A stretch of DNA of 64,000 nucleotides. Source: Ectocarpus siliculosus. Taxonomy: Eukaryota; Sar; Phaeophyceae; Ectocarpales; Ectocarpaceae. This document shows, piece after piece, positions 534-36,850 of the stretch. The notes under the pieces were generated by a model. That model made no database searches. It had not been told where the DNA came from and worked only from the letters and a program-made list of their open reading frames with translations. The position numbers and the translations under genes were made by a program. The stretch covers positions 154,207 through 218,206 of the forward strand of contig FN648368.1 in NCBI GenBank assembly GCA_000310025.1, written 5' to 3'. The first letter of the stretch is position 1. Each line of letters begins with the position of its first letter.

Positions 534-3500
534 TTCGACATTTTCCGGCTGCTTTCGTTCTACTACAGCAGCGTCGGCGGCTTCATGAACCAGGTGAGCG
601 CGCGAACTCCTCTTGTTTTCGCGACCTGTTTGTGTTTTCATTTTTGGACGTGGGTATTGTTGTGTTCTGCTGGTGTGTTGTACTTATCCAATGTTGACCT
701 AACGGTTTGACTGTTATCGAACATGAACCTCAAGTACCTTGTCTTTGTTCAAAGGCCGGCGGTTTGTCGGTTCGGTTATTGTTGTTGTTGTTGCTGTTGG
801 TTGTTGCCGCTGCTGTTGATTTCGTCGTCAGTGGTGTAGCGTTGTCCAAATATTCCGCCCTCCCCCCACTCGGTGTTTGCCATCGGGATTGGGTTTTCGT
901 CGCTTGGCAACGACGTTGTAAAACAAGCCAATTCACTTCGTGAACTCGGCAACCAGGTTACCGTTTTTTTTTTTACCTCGGTTTTTTTTTTTGGCGGTAA
1001 CCATAATGGTGGTCGAGTAGATCATGTTGTGCGGGGTGGAGAAACCTCACTCCGCGCAACGGGGGATGATCGTACCACGTTGTGTTAAAATGGTCAAGCA
1101 TCCTCGAGGCAGTTACACAGTGCTTACAACTGTCTCTGGAAGTAAAAGCACCAGAAAGTAAATTAAGTCATACGTAGCTGTCATCCGTACGCAAGGAAGT
1201 AAGCACAAGATGCCGAACACCCTTAGCAGGGATGCAGCTCACCCTTCATGCGACTCGCCAAATACCTCACGGCGCTTCGCGCTTGGTGATGTGAGAGCCT
1301 GGTCCGGTGAGAACCCGGCGTGCTCCGTCCCGGCTTTGTAGGGATGCGAGGTCAATGGTCAAACGACTACGGCATGCACGACTATGAGTATGAGTACACC
1401 CCCTCAAGGCCGTGTAATCCCACGCATGGTGGTCCCTTCGTCCCCCCCTCTACGTTATTGAACTTCCGTTTCCTCCTCCTCGCAGGTGCTTCTCATGACG
1501 GCGGTCTTCCTTTACGTGTGAGTGGTGGTGGTCGTTGTTGCTGCTGTTGTAGTACCGTAGGTGTGTAGTACCGTAGGTGTAGCTGTTGTTGTGATTGCTG
1601 CAGTCGTTGTTGTGTTTGTTGTTGCCATTTGTTGGACGTGTCGTATTTGGTGGATGTCATTACCATGGTCTTGGCCGTTCCGTCCATGTCCTGTTTCGGC
1701 ATCACCCGCTCGTTCTTCCTACTCTTCGCCTCCTCCCCCTTGCCCACGTATGCCAGCGCAACTATGTATGCGACGTTTGCTGTGCTCGTCATCTCTAACC
1801 AAGCCGCACCTCTCCTGTCTGGTACCTGCGTGGCGTCAACAAACAGGTACGCGAAGCTGTACATCGCGTTCGACCCCGACTTCGTTGACACGGTCGACGA
1901 CGATGTGCTCGATGCCATCTCCAGCCAGTTCCTCTTCCAGCTGGGTTTCCTGCTCATCCTCCCCATCCCGCTGCTTCTGGCCGTAGAGCAGGTGACCAAA
2001 CAGCGCGGCAAGTTATTTAGCACCTGGGACAAAATGCAGTGATATTTTGTTGCTGCTAGACGTTGATGGGGTTATTTTCGCGCCTGAAACGAAACGAAAC
2101 AAGGAACACTGTTGTTGCTGGACATCGTGGACGTTTTTTTTTTTTTTTCGTCCTGAGACAAGACGTAGCAGCCCTGGGCATTGTTGTCGCTGGACGTCAA
2201 GTTCGCGAGGACACGATTGCACGTAACCTGCAAAGGAAAGCTGTTTCGCCAACGCGAACGACTGGCGTCAACACGAGTGCACCTTCGTTAGCATGTTTGA
2301 TTTTCTGCTCCCGGTGTTGGTGGTGTGGCCTCACACGGGGGTAGCGCGTCCTATCCTATCATACCCGTGATGCGGCAGTGACAGCCCCCTATCGAGAGGG
2401 TTGTCTTGGCACCCTGAGGTAGTGGCTCATTCCACCATCGTGTTGCATTACTCCCTCACACCGCCGCCTCTACGACATTGCCCAGTACCGTGCGGCTTGG
2501 ATAGTCTTGAGTGTTCCGTTTTTCTTATCCTAACTTACCCCGCCTCCCTTTTTCTTTCACCATCGTACTCACGACTCAGTTGTACCTTTCTTACCTCTGT
2601 CCCGTCCTCCGCCCCGACTAACCCGCACGATGATCCTGTACGCGATCACCATCATCATCTCCATCGCCGCCACCGCCGCCGCCGCCGATGTAAACAGGGC
2701 ATGCAACGCGCTGTCTCGACCCTGTTCAACATCATGCTCCGCCTGGCGCCCTTCTTCTTCATCTTCTCGGCCGGCACGAACGCCCACTACGTCAACAGCG
2801 CCGTCATGACGGGGCAGGCCAAGTACCAGGCCACGGGACGCGGCTTCGTCATCGCCCACGTGAGTTTTTCTTACTTGGAAGTTATTTTTAGGGTACATAG
2901 CGAAAAGGGAGAGCACGCGCTCTGCAGGCACCCGGACAATTTCACTCGTCTTCGGTGCTCAGTTGTGTTTCCGCCCCCCTCCCAACTAAACCTGCGCCAA
3001 TCGCGATCGTAGCTTGTGGTAAATTTCCTTATTTTTTTGCGAGGCGGGCGCCGCGCCTGCGCTGGCTGCTTTGTTTGGTTGGCTCGGCTCGACCTCCGTA
3101 CCTGCTGTCTTTTGTCCCCGTGCTTGTCGATGCCCTCGTTTGCAGGAGTACTTCGTGGACATGTTCCCCCTCTACCTCACGAGCCACTTCAACCCGGCCT
3201 TCGAGCTGCTGGTGGTTTTGATCGTGTACGCCAGCTTCGCGACGTCCGGCTACTTCCTTGAGACTTTCTCCGTGTACCTGCTCATCATCGGCCTGCTGTG
3301 GACACCGCTGGTCTTCAACCCTAACGGTCTGGACTTCACATACGCCAGGTACATGTCCATTCGAATCGTGTCGCGGCAGTTTTCCTCTTTTTTTTATTGG
3401 TGTGGTTTCCTGTTGTTATGTTTATTGGCGTCGATGTCGTTGTTGTTTTCGTTGGCTGTTGTCAGCGATAGTGGGATGCATCTACAGAGACGGGGCGCAG

Positions 3501-6500
3501 AATGTAACAACTGTGGTTCGAGTTGACATGGACCACGCATCTTCTCCCATGCACAATCACAATCACAGAGAGTGAACCGAGGAGTGAAACAATGAATTCA
3601 CTTCGTAGCAGCATTACCAGCGATGTCAAGGTTACTTGTCTGTGTCGGTGGTTCCTTATTTCCTATTTCACGGAGCCCCGTCAGCTGGGACTCATAGTTG
3701 CAACCTCTTCGTACTGATTATTTTACTCTAGCTTTATCGCCCGACTGTACGTGACCTCTTCCTTCTCTCCGCCATCGATCCCCTATTTTACCGCTACCCC
3801 TCCCTTTCGTTTCCTTTTCTCCCTCACAACTCCCCCCTTCGCAGCCAAGACTTTACCGGGTGGATGGAGTGGATGAACAGCCCCGTGGATGACCCGAAGA
3901 AGGGCTGGCTCTCGTGGTACAGCAGGGTATTGGAGGAGACGAGGACCGAGCTTCCCTTCGGCAAGAAGCTGCAGGCCATCTTCCGCCGCTCACGGTACGG
4001 GACGCGAGGAATGCCTCCATAACAAGATTTGACTATTTGTTCGGTCTTCGATACCGTTTCGCACTGCTGTTGTTGTGTTTTTTTTTTCTTGATTCGGCGA
4101 CAAACACACGCACTTCCACGACAGCATGTCAGTGTGTGGGTCACGGATCCGTTCGGTTTCGTCCGTATGACAGTGTTGCCGGCGTGGTTCCGGAGCGCGG
4201 ATATCGCCGCGCCGATTTGTTTTTTGTTACCGTCGGGTGAAGGTGTATCCCGCCGTAATGAATTCGGTCGCTGTTGGCGGCTTTGTGTGTGGACCTGCAC
4301 GACTGATGGCCTTCGACGGGTGCAGGTCCGAAACAAGCTCGCCCTCTCCCCTCCTGCCTCCTACCTTCGGCATCGCCCCGGCCATCTCCATCGGTGTAGC
4401 CGTCTACGTTAGTCAACTGTCTCGCTCTTTGTTGTGGACCGTTTCGGCAATGTCTCGAGCATTATATCACGGCAGTCTCCCTTCGGCTGATTTTTGGTTC
4501 TTGGAATTGCGTGCACCTGCCTCCTAGAACATACACCGCGCGCCAGTTTCCCCAGCGTTTGGGAAGCCCCTCCGACCCCTCCCCTCCACCTCATTCTGCG
4601 CTCTCTCATCGTGCCATGTACCTCCACCCCAAGGCTGCTGATCCTCGTGTACGGCTTCCTGACGGCCATCGGCGAGGACTACGACGGCGGCATCGACGGC
4701 GACGTGTGGCCCGGCTCGGTGGTGGTGGGCACGTGTATGCTGATCGTCGTGGGGCTGCTCATGTGCCAGTCCTGGATCCGCTCCAAGTGCTGCCCCCCCA
4801 AGGCGCTCAAGGGAGGCATTCAGGCCGCCAGGTGGGCGTGCAACCGAAACCAATGGAGAGGAGGGCGGTGCTACTAACAACGCCAACTCTAGCCCTAGCC
4901 CTAGTCGTATCCGAAGGTGGTCGTGCAACCAGAACGGAATGAGAGAGGGAAGGTGTAGTAACCCTAGTCCTAGCCCAAGGTGGTCGTGCAACCATAACGA
5001 AATGGGAGAGGGAAGGTGTAGTAACCCTAGTCCTAGCCCAAGGTGGTCGTGCAACCAACACAAATTGAGGGGGGGCTACATGTATTCCTCTCACCGAAAC
5101 GGCTGGAGTGCTGAGTATGATCTTGATGCGGTAGGGTAGGCCCACAGCGTGGTCTCACATGGAGAAAAGTATTCCACAGCTTGATTTCAAGCGCTCGTAG
5201 AGCGATGACGTCGGTCTTGGCGCTGAAGAAGGGGACGGTGTTGCTGGCCTTCTTTTCTAGCTGCACCCTTTTTTTTTTCCACAGAGGTATTCAACATGCT
5301 AGAAACCCTTTGTTCGATCTGATTGATTATTGTCGAGGCATGTTGCTCACCTGTTGCTTGTCGCATCGGCCGGTGTGTTCTGTGCAAAGGTGGGCTCGTC
5401 TGTCGAAGCTCTTCATCCTGGTGGGCGTTATCGTTGGCGTCATCGTGCTCACGGATTTGGACATTCTCGAGAGTATTCGACAGGTGAACTGCAAAAGACC
5501 AGACTTCCAACACACACCCTTCGACTGTGATGTTGTCTCGAACGGGTTTTAGTCTTTCAGTGACCGTACTGTATATTTTCTAAGAATATCGAACTAAATA
5601 TATACTGTAATTGAGCTGTCGATACCGTGACCCTCGATTCCCATAAATGGATGGGCTACTCTGGCAACTCAAATCAGGCTGTGCACACATGTCTCTCCCG
5701 ACATGTCCCTTGCTATCCGCAAAGAGGAAGCGACAAATATTAACTCCAAGGGTAAGGTAGATGCACGACATCCGAACCTCTGAGGGTACAGGTATGAGTA
5801 AAGCTCCCCTGGTTACATTAGTTGGGCAGGTCGGGTGTGCTATGGCTAGGTCCGTCGTGTAGATATTATTGTGGGTGTTGGCGGTATGGTAGTTCTTTTC
5901 AAACAGCATTTTGTGACCCTAGTCTGGGGGTATGAACAAGAGATTCTTGCGAGCGCTTAGAACCTGCGATCCTTAGTTCTGGCGTGGTTGTTTTCTCAAC
6001 ACATGAGCATGGAGACAAACGGTCCCGAAAGATTCTTTGCGGTGACCCCCTCTTTTTTTGTTCTCTTTCTGAGGGTGCATGGCAAACCAAGTGTAGAGTA
6101 TCGGAGATGAATGGCTCAACGCCCTCGTTTCTTGCTATTCGGCGCCGCTCATGGCCTAACCGTGTCGATGTACTCGTCTCTACTGTGTTTTGCTACGCCC
6201 TATCATATGGCGCTTCTTTCTTCCAACGTCCCTGTTACCCCGCTCGTTCGTTCCCCTCCGCCGTCCCCCCTCTCTCTCCGCGGCAGTTCATCTTCTACAT
6301 CCTGTCGTTCGTGATCCTCATCTACTACGTGTCCCAAATCGTCGTGCTCTTCATGGAAGACGCTCTGAGGAACGTGGCCCTGGTTAACCTGGCGTTCAAG
6401 TCAGTGCACCTCATCACGGGCATTGTGATAATTGCCCCGGTGCTGCTGCTGAGCTTCTTCCCCCTCTTCGTCGACCTGCAGACGCGAATGCTCTTCAACG

Positions 6501-34331: not shown

Positions 34332-34569
34332 TTTATTTTGTTTTCTTTCGAATTGCTTCATTATTTCTTCGGTTTCTAGGCTACGTGTTGGGGAGAGAGA
34401 CGCACGAAACGCTCATCGTCTCTCCGGCCGCGTTAGCTGCAAAGGCCGGCGTCAACTCTTACAAATCCATCTCTCTCCCCACAAATACTAGCCGGGGGAC
34501 TACGACTGCAAACGCAGGAGTCCCAAAACTGACCAAGTCCTCAAATGGTACACACCATTCTACAACACC
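34332..34569 (-). repeat. Terminal repeat B2
   Basis: 238 bases, almost identical to 34903-35142; both contain ggctacgtgttggggagag and end in ctacaacacc on the plus strand. Confidence 0.92.
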
Positions 34570-34639
34570 TGACTAGATACCGAATATTCCCGAACTTATG
34601 CCCCCACCTTCGAAAGAAAAGGGATGGGAGGGCGGGATT

Positions 34640-34902
34640 TTCTAAAACTGCCGCCGCTACTGCGTTAGGCGGCTGCTGCTGTCCTTCCGTTGCTTCACGC
34701 GCTCATGTAGCTGTCACACGTTACCCGACTTTGCTACAGCCCCTGCGTGGACTCGATCACGGAATGACACCCCCAACTATAGACTAATAATTCCAAACAC
34801 CGTGACCCTGGGTTTCCGGTAGAAAATGAAGCCAAATTCTAATTCGACTGTTACAAAATAAACACCAGTTTATTCTATCTGCTTCGACGAACAAACCTTC
34901 CT
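34640..34902 (-). repeat. Terminal repeat A2
   Basis: About 263 bases, almost identical to 36592-36850; both contain gccgctactgcgttaggcgg and end in gacgaacaaaccttcc on the plus strand. It abuts B1 directly at 34902/34903. Confidence 0.92.
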
Positions 34903-35142
34903 TTTATTTTGTTTTCTTTCGAATTGCTTCATTAATTTCTTCCGGTTTCTAGGCTACGTGTTGGGGAGAGAGACGCACGAAACGCTCATCGTCTCTCCGG
35001 CCGCGTTAGCTGCAAAGGCCGGCGTCAACTCTTACAAATCCATCTCTCTCCCCACAAATACTAGCCGGGGGACTACGACTGCAAACGCAGGAGTCCCAAA
35101 ACTGACCAAGTCCTCAAATGGTACACACCATTCTACAACACC
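34903..35142 (-). repeat. Internal repeat B1
   Basis: 240 bases matching 34332-34569 with two or three single-base indels near the left end. The recombinase frame ends just upstream of it at 35184 on the minus strand. Confidence 0.92.
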
Positions 35143-35183
35143 CACATCGAGGTCAGTTTCTGGACGACTACCGAATAAGTCAA

Positions 35184-36298
35184 CTATCCGTTCCCCCAGA
35201 CGGTCCCCTCCCCCGGCTGTCTCGATACGATCCTACTGCCGTCTGTAAGTTTCCGTGACACTCGCCGCGAATCCTCTACATTGTTTCGCGCGTACGGCTT
35301 GTATGCATCCGACCTCCACTTCCCTTCTCTCTGAATCACTCGTTCTGCGATGTCTCCGCCCGATGCAAGAGCCGTCGCGCCTCCAATTCGCAACGAGTGC
35401 AACGCGTACTCCTGGGGGTTACGCCCCGACCTCGCTACCACTTCTCTGAGTGCACGGAGGGCAGCAGTATACCTCACTACTCTCACTGCTCTTCCACTAC
35501 GGTACGAAGCCAACGGTGCGGAGTCAGGGAACGTCGCCATGACACGATAACAGCTCCACCACAAGAGCCACCGCGCCACCGCGTGCTCTCACACCTGACT
35601 GCGGTCCGGTGACTTCGTCTCGCGTACGAACCTCGTATGTTTCCTTTCTGCTCTTGATCGGCCTTGTGCCCTCTAAACCTCATTTCGACACGGTCTGCTC
35701 TACGATAGTGACTAAAGACTAATTGCGTCTCGCCAGCAAACAATGCTACGTCCGCCCTCGTAAGACAGTGTGCCTCATGCACCCTGCCCGCATCATTCGC
35801 GAACACCTCATCAGACCGTGTGATAAAGAGATAGGACAAGCACAGACACAGCCACATCACTCTGCCCCCTTCCCCCCAGTTCTGGCTTGCGCTTTCCCCG
35901 TCCAGCAGCATACGCCAAGACACAGGCAGGCGCACACGGCGTACCGTCCCCACAGCCACGTGGTTCCTCGCAATCCCCCTTAGCGCACATTTCAACATCG
36001 GAGACGACAAGTCTAGCTCGACAGAAGCTTCCAGCCTATGAAAATGTTGTACAGCCGTGAGTTTTCCGGATATTGTACTCGCTAGATTACCCTCAGACTC
36101 GAAACACCAGGCTACGAAGTCTATCAACTCCCACACATGAAGGTCCCCGGCACGTTGCCCTAGGAACTTGGGCTTCTCCGTCAGCCTGCGAAACGTGCAC
36201 CAAGAGTTGAAGCCTGACGTGTAAGTCCTTCTAGCTCTTTCTTTTTGCCGTTGAATTTTTTCTTCAGAGAGAGTACGTCTGGTTGGGACGAACCGCAT
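35184..36298 (-). pseudogene. Tyrosine recombinase, complete catalytic set but one frame change
   Basis: Starts at ATG 36298 (MRFVPTRRTLSEEKIQ) and runs open to about 35585; the text then continues in a second frame to 35184. First frame: SAM-like core-binding part and the first catalytic arginine in SYLFITRSDEVFA. Second frame: HSLRIGGATAL (H..R box), then KWRSDAYKPYAR with the W/H position and the nucleophilic tyrosine. All residues needed for strand exchange are thus present in order, about 360 residues in total, typical for DIRS/Ngaro/Crypton recombinases. The frame switch lies near plus-strand 35580-35595 (gcgtgctctcac) and is explained by a single-base indel; a sequencing error, a real mutation or a short intron are all possible. 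It is the only gene inside the split repeats. Confidence 0.8.
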
Positions 36299-36345
36299 TT
36301 TTTTTCTTCAGCGAGAGTACGTCTCGGTTGGGATGAACCGCATCC
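36253..36345 (-). repeat. Tandem duplication at the recombinase start
   Basis: About 45 bases around the start codon are present twice in tandem (plus-strand word cttcag.gagagtacgtct, then gaaccgcat). The upstream copy also has an ATG but is put out of frame by small changes. Confidence 0.8.
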
Positions 36346-36591
36346 CATGTTTGGGAAGGGACCTATCTGAGCGGCGCGGCGAGCGAGACTGCGTTGGCTT
36401 GCCGCCGCTTATCTTACTGCACCCTCCCCCCTCGTGCTAAATGCACGCAGCGGTGAGGTCACAAGAGTAGCGGGACGCGAATAGGAACACGGCCGACACG
36501 ATGGATGTTGGACACGAGTACACACCTTTATATGGAGAGTCGCGTGCTGGTCACTTCCCCAATGCTTGCGCCGTGTCCCGTCCCGCCCTTT

Positions 36592-36850
36592 TCTAAACTG
36601 CCGCCGCTACTGCGTTAGGCGGCTGCTGCTGTCCTTCCGTTGCTTCACGCGCTCTGTAGCTGTCACACGTTACCCGACTTTGCTACAGCCCCTGCGTGGA
36701 CTCGATCACGGAATGACACCCCCAACTATAGACTAATAATTCCAAACACCGTGACCCTGGGTTTCCGGTAGAAAATGAAGCCAAATTCTAATTCGACTGT
36801 TACAAAATAAACACCAGTTTATTCTATCTGCTTCGACGAACAAACCTTCC
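36592..36850 (-). repeat. Terminal repeat A1
   Basis: The match to 34640-34902 ends at plus-strand position 36850, after which the two copies differ (tattg against ttttattt). Confidence 0.92.

Follow-up and report, generated by a model that had tools for sequence, protein, structure and literature searches.

TOC1 of Chlamydomonas is a non-autonomous element with split repeats, an internal tandem array and no reverse transcriptase (RT). Among tyrosine recombinase (YR) retrotransposons, those with split direct repeats are assigned to Ngaro when they have no methyltransferase and to PAT when they have one (excerpts of PMC4157794), and DIRS1 is described as recombining between circle and target without a target-site duplication (excerpts of PMC3266345). 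The part of PMC12477816 consulted reports 15 families of Ngaro and 5 PAT-like ones from Ectocarpus, and the family described here may be among them. The element studied here has split direct repeats and lies on the minus strand of a 64,000-nt stretch of the Ectocarpus siliculosus genome (contig FN648368.1, positions 154,207 to 218,206), which we call the window. Coordinates are those of the window, the element is read on the minus strand, and L-numbers denote loci fetched from the same genome. We conclude that the element is very probably a dead copy, shortened by internal deletion, from a family of non-autonomous YR retrotransposons descended from an Ngaro-like retrotransposon that is still in the genome. 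The parent family, ~6.5 kb long and RT-less, is abundant and is probably copied by RT in trans.

Layout of the element in the window

A repeat search of the window gave the order A1, recombinase remnant, B1, A2, B2 on the minus strand over 34332-36850. The original prediction, made from the sequence, had described four blocks in the order A1-ORF-B1-A2-B2, two A of about 260 and two B of about 240 bases, and both pairs were found there. The A pair consists of a 207-nt block at 99% and a 60-nt block at 100% identity, the B pair of a 200-nt block at 100% and a 35-nt block at 97%; repeats of ~240-262 bp at 99% would be far beyond chance. B1 and A2, which had been thought directly adjacent, are about one base apart in the refined coordinates. 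No inverted pair longer than 19 nt was listed by the repeat search of the window, and the terminal repeats are direct. The GC content of the window is 53%.

Repeat search and alignment place A1, the left terminal repeat of 262 bp, at 36589-36850, with a boundary that is identical in 22 copies. It is followed by a left internal non-coding region retained from the parent element (36235-36588); 39 other places match query positions 1-617 at 100% (rounded). At 36234-36235, alignment to L001, a 6.5-kb copy, reveals a private deletion joint that connects L001 position 617 to 4618 with a 1-nt overlap, ~4.0 kb being gone. The recombinase remnant (35184-36234), recognized by homology to a 415-aa ORF of L001 and a 392-aa YR ORF of L059, has lost its 5' end, and its frame is broken by small insertions. 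Internal repeats B1 (about 240 bp, 34903-35142) and A2 (about 264 bp, 34638-34901) were likewise placed by repeat search and alignment, and the repeat coordinates leave a spacer (34570-34637) between A2 and B2. B2, the right terminal repeat of 238 bp found by the repeat search (34332-34569), ends in ...AAAATAAA, and this right end is invariant in 22 copies.

What is encoded between A1 and B1 is the C-terminal part of a tyrosine recombinase, whose ORF has lost its 5' part. Residues H322, R325, W349, Y354 and Y357 (numbered on the L059 homologue) are invariant in 7/7 aligned proteins; further upstream, all six rows that reach the R of TRSDE conserve it. The expectation that the only gene would be a recombinase with R, H..R, W and Y stands as regards these residues, but not as regards an intact gene: the window has two ORFs here, of 274 aa and 134 aa, that do not share a frame, with small insertions relative to L001. 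RT and RNase H are not among the ORFs of the window copy, which makes it a derivative and not an autonomous member of Ngaro.

In the same 22 copies the left flank is A-rich: the base preceding GGAAGG is A in 22/22, and A also stands at -3 (20 copies) and at -4 (17 copies). Matches between the two flanks of a copy are 1-4 nt long in 21 copies and 8 nt in one, and there is no target-site duplication of fixed length among the 22. This pattern of ends and flanks fits recombinase-mediated insertion at short A-rich sites.

RT-bearing relatives and an RT-less family

A genome search with the whole element gave 44 matches from the best 40 of 488 candidates scored: the window itself over 1-2519, 39 matches starting at position 617, and four left-part pieces. 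With the left part as query, the best 40 of 449 candidates gave 42 matches, namely the window, 39 over 1-617 and two shorter ones. Both sets are the best-scoring candidates and are thus biased towards the most window-like copies. When 40 left parts, including that of the window, were followed downstream, 29 led to a recombinase match and 11, the window among them, were unpaired in the lists. One of the 29 pairs measures 2,979 bp from the start of A1 to the end of the recombinase match, the other 28 between 4,817 and 5,775 bp.

L001 exemplifies these longer copies. Its 6,514 bp comprise A1, left region, tandem array, gag parts, a 415-aa recombinase ORF and B1-A2-B2. The gag parts have frame changes and stops, together with a CCCH-type stretch visible by eye. 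RT was not seen among the ORFs of L001, whose alignment to L061 passes over the RT region. The YR ORF of the ~6.5-kb family is open, with the first RT codons fused to it. The left part of L001 is identical to that of the window at 617/617 positions.

Copies that have kept RT were reached through recombinase motifs. A degenerate motif pattern found 30 sites in the genome (reversed control, 1), five of which were fetched (L014-L018), and a second pattern found two sites only, both in family members. Translations of L014, L015, L016 and L018, judged by reading, contain RT/RNase H-like stretches and a recombinase homologous to that of the window family; L017 was rejected as a different element without a YR match. 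Recombinase identity to L059 is 42% for L014 (part of whose row is out of frame), 44% for L015 and 72% for L016, and the L018 recombinase is 49% identical to that of L001. L015 has its own A1, B1, A2 and B2, and a gag whose CCCH finger falls just below the Pfam cut-off; its A2-to-B2 interval is ~0.8 kb (L015 7010-7807), compared with 68 bp in the window.

The RT piece of L016 gave 128 matches in the genome, all 145 candidates having been scored. Comparison of all 128 with 102 rows of YR matches placed an RT relative 1.0-1.2 kb upstream in six of the 102, and three of these six were fetched as L059, L060 and L061. They carry gag ORFs of 564, 542 and 542 aa, CCCH-like by eye, and each has a 392-aa recombinase ORF; RT/RNase H is open over 768 aa in L059 and 690 aa in L060, and interrupted in L061. 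The recombinases of RT-bearing copies are 96-98% identical to that of L001 (rows C27, C74, C156 and C147; 97% for L001 and L059), and over the stretch fetched the A and B repeats of L059-L061 share 96-99% identity with those in the window. B1, A2 and B2 are present in L059 and L061. The RT-bearing layout thus reads A1, left region, tandem array, gag, RT/RNase H, YR, B1, A2 (and B2). A genome search with Pfam RVT_1 (best 150 of 1041 candidates) returned nothing bearing on the window family.

These relatives have the A/B repeats of the family together with gag, RT-RNase H and YR, and they support the non-autonomous derivative that the original prediction had offered as one of two readings. The other reading, a mobile class keeping a circular topology without reverse transcription, is not supported; the prediction had named longer gag-RT copies, with this copy a simple deletion of them, as what would tell against it. 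Such copies with the same repeats exist in L059-L061, the left end of A1 lying beyond the fetched stretch, and the deletion is two-tiered: the window copy is deleted relative to 6.5-kb RT-less copies, and those in turn relative to RT-bearing ones.

Several length variants were seen among the copies. In L001, a ~250-bp tandem unit is present in 6.2 copies between A1 and gag (3534-5302), and similar tandem repeats occupy the same place in L059-L061; the clustering of A1-to-YR-end spacings near 4,910, 5,410 and 5,660 bp suggests gain and loss of this unit. L007 has a 2.4-kb stretch between gag part and tandem array (3788-6227) that is absent from L001, with no ORF of at least 150 aa wholly inside it on the element's strand. 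At L006 7262 and L008 6312 the match stops exactly at the end of B1, without A2-B2, as recombination between B1 and B2 would give. L002 has B1 and then an A repeat running into the left internal region (1906-2438), which is a head-to-tail junction. We do not take the B1-ending forms or the L002 form as traces of YR activity, since homologous recombination between repeats explains them equally well. L004 was suspected of being RT-bearing on account of a long frame, and was dropped because a run of N lies there.

Order of deletions and mode of movement

L001, L006, L007 and L008 share one joint relative to L061 (4079/6130), across GCAGGT at both edges, with ~2.06 kb removed. At two mismatches or fewer this joint occurs at 102 genome sites (reversed control, 0) and the right boundary of RT-bearing copies at 10 (control, 0). 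When the 102 YR rows were marked, using 100 listed of the 102 RT-less joints, 85 had the RT-less joint, six the RT-bearing boundary, 11 neither and none both. Downstream of the 40 left parts, 30 have the RT-less joint, none the RT-bearing boundary and 10, including the window, neither. The gag deletions differ between copies: L006 has 3131/3642 and 3769/3849, L001 shows the second of these plus the right edge of the first, and L007 and L008 have 3152/3841. One common RT joint with differing gag deletions indicates that loss of RT preceded loss of gag, unless the microhomology was used twice or copies recombined.

The window's own deletion covers the RT-deletion joint, so its placement in the RT-less family rests on sequence identity. 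The left part agrees at 617/617, and outside indels its YR shows 0 synonymous and 0 non-synonymous differences from L001, compared with 12-14 synonymous and 7-13 non-synonymous differences from L061 and L059; on this identity the window copy would belong to the RT-less family.

The history runs in three steps. A deletion across the 6-nt microhomology GCAGGT took out RT/RNase H, two RT-less subfamilies then underwent separate gag deletions, and the window copy lost ~4.0 kb more. The RT-less family would be copied in trans by the RT and gag of RT-bearing relatives. As in the split-repeat circle model, the DNA would be closed into a circle, splinted by the B1-A2 stretch, and the circle would be inserted at short A-rich sites, without target-site duplication, by a tyrosine recombinase from either the family itself or a partner. 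With its YR broken, the window copy would need every protein in trans, if it is still mobile.

Movement without RT was weighed as an alternative. In that case the ~6.5-kb RT-less family would excise and reinsert as a YR-made DNA circle, its split repeats being relics or recombination sites. There are about ten RT-less joints to every RT-bearing boundary (102 vs 10), 41/102 YR rows cover query 1-414 without a stop (table count), and YR dN/dS from L001 is 0.16 to L059, 0.35 to L061 and 0.34-0.45 to L007/L008, values compatible with selection on the family's own recombinase, though suggestive at most. However, the N-terminal part of gag that has been kept gives similar values (0.34 to L059, 0.28 to L061, 0.46-0.64 to L007/L008), so the YR signal is not unique, and between L007 and L008 dN/dS is 1.19 for YR and about 1.2 in both YR and the kept gag part. 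The family also carries a defined RT/RNase H deletion, RT-bearing partners with the same ends exist, and YR is broken in the window copy itself. An RT-independent class is accordingly very improbable, and we consider it very unlikely, if by a shade less so, that the RT-less family, with ~100 copies and its own YR ORF kept and fused, now moves mainly as recombinase-made DNA circles. If it did, a retrotransposon lineage would have reverted to Crypton-like DNA transposition with its split repeats kept.

A further reading, which does not conflict with a dead, deleted copy, has to do with when the last step took place. The 2.5-kb form might have arisen ahead of insertion, for example through a jump during reverse transcription, and have inserted as a mini-element. 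The near-blunt joint with its 1-nt overlap and the intact ends are in keeping with this, but a later deletion within a 6.5-kb insertion explains them equally well, and the joint (617 to 4618) occurs once in the genome at two mismatches or fewer (control, 0), which is no sign of multiplication; we regard the mini-element as possible but doubtful. The single joint also disposes of the suggestion that many 2.5-kb copies might share this exact structure, and with it of a YR-only class made up of such copies. That unrelated nested insertions or a tandem duplication produced A-B-A-B by chance, which had been named as grounds for refutation, is scarcely credible: order and spacing are the same in L001, L004, L059 and L061, and a more distant relative with RT, L015, has this order too. 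The analysis as a whole takes away a candidate new class of mobile element.

Some results weigh against descent from an Ngaro-like element with copying in trans. Such copying is inferred. A1-A2 and B1-B2 agree at 99-100% inside elements and at 96-99% between them, and since the former is little above the latter, support for re-copying at each cycle is weak. The own-flank matches average 2.5 nt, slightly more than the 2.1 of 462 mismatched pairs, and this difference is possibly meaningful. The YR has no Pfam match, solved structures gave no credible match to it, and what links it to the other YR family is a profile match over 40 columns (E 0.0003, probability 40%). The gag of L059 has no Pfam match and its RT has a weak RVT_1 match below the Pfam cut-off. 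L060 is without B2, its homology ending a little past A2, and the sequence fetched for L059, L060 and L061 takes in no more than part of A1 (58, 154 and 138 nt).

One genome holds a series of an RT-bearing relative, an RT-less family with an open YR ORF and a terminally deleted copy. The series suggests a route by which a YR retrotransposon can lose RT and, after it, gag; that order would be explained if RT can work in trans but the recombinase is needed in cis.

Comparison with known systems

A genome search with Pfam Phage_integrase, in which all 47 candidates were scored, gave 23 matches; the window family is not listed, and the search led to another RT-YR family (L010-L012). L010 has a methyltransferase-like region after RNase H, seen by eye and without a Pfam match, and at L010 3355-4908 an N-terminal ALOG match of the recombinase (PF04852, E 8e-5, below cut-off) with a zinc-ribbon match. 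ALOG domains have been linked to DIRS1-type elements (excerpts of PMC3537659). L009 (4932-6872) and L013 (2838-4763) encode proteins of 647 and 642 aa with weak Phage_integrase matches; RT was not seen among their listed ORFs of at least 180 aa, and they are possibly other YR elements.

The resemblance to Ngaro and PAT that was first proposed is right in kind. As in Ngaro, the repeats are split and direct with the internal pair downstream of YR (window, L001, L004, L059, L061), and the RT-bearing relatives encode YR as well as gag and RT/RNase H. A difference from Ngaro is that neither the window copy nor its RT-less family has RT/RNase H, and the overlap between the RT and YR ORFs of L059 is unusual for Ngaro as far as excerpts of PMC3266345 go. 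The A1-B1-A2-B2 arrangement is shared with the PAT/TOC group of DIRS elements. In contrast to that group, of which a methyltransferase is a feature (excerpts of PMC4157794), none was seen in the RT ORF of L059, which gave no Pfam match except RVT_1 (E up to 10). Pfam is a weak test here, since the methyltransferase-like region of L010 also lacks a match, but by our reading ~40 residues lie between the end of RNase H and the YR overlap in L059, leaving little room for a methyltransferase, and this short spacing speaks against one. On split direct repeats and no methyltransferase seen, Ngaro-like would be the best reading of the family.

Unlike DIRS1-like elements, the window copy has direct and not inverted terminal repeats. 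We found no description of an RT-less, YR-retaining split-repeat family in the literature searched, which is a weak statement. Unlike TOC1, the RT-less family described here retains an open YR ORF. With Cryptons the window copy shares a tyrosine recombinase as the sole coding part left, and it differs from them in its split repeats, in a YR that is 97% identical between L001 and RT-bearing L059, and in a family history in which the joint left by the deletion of RT can be mapped.
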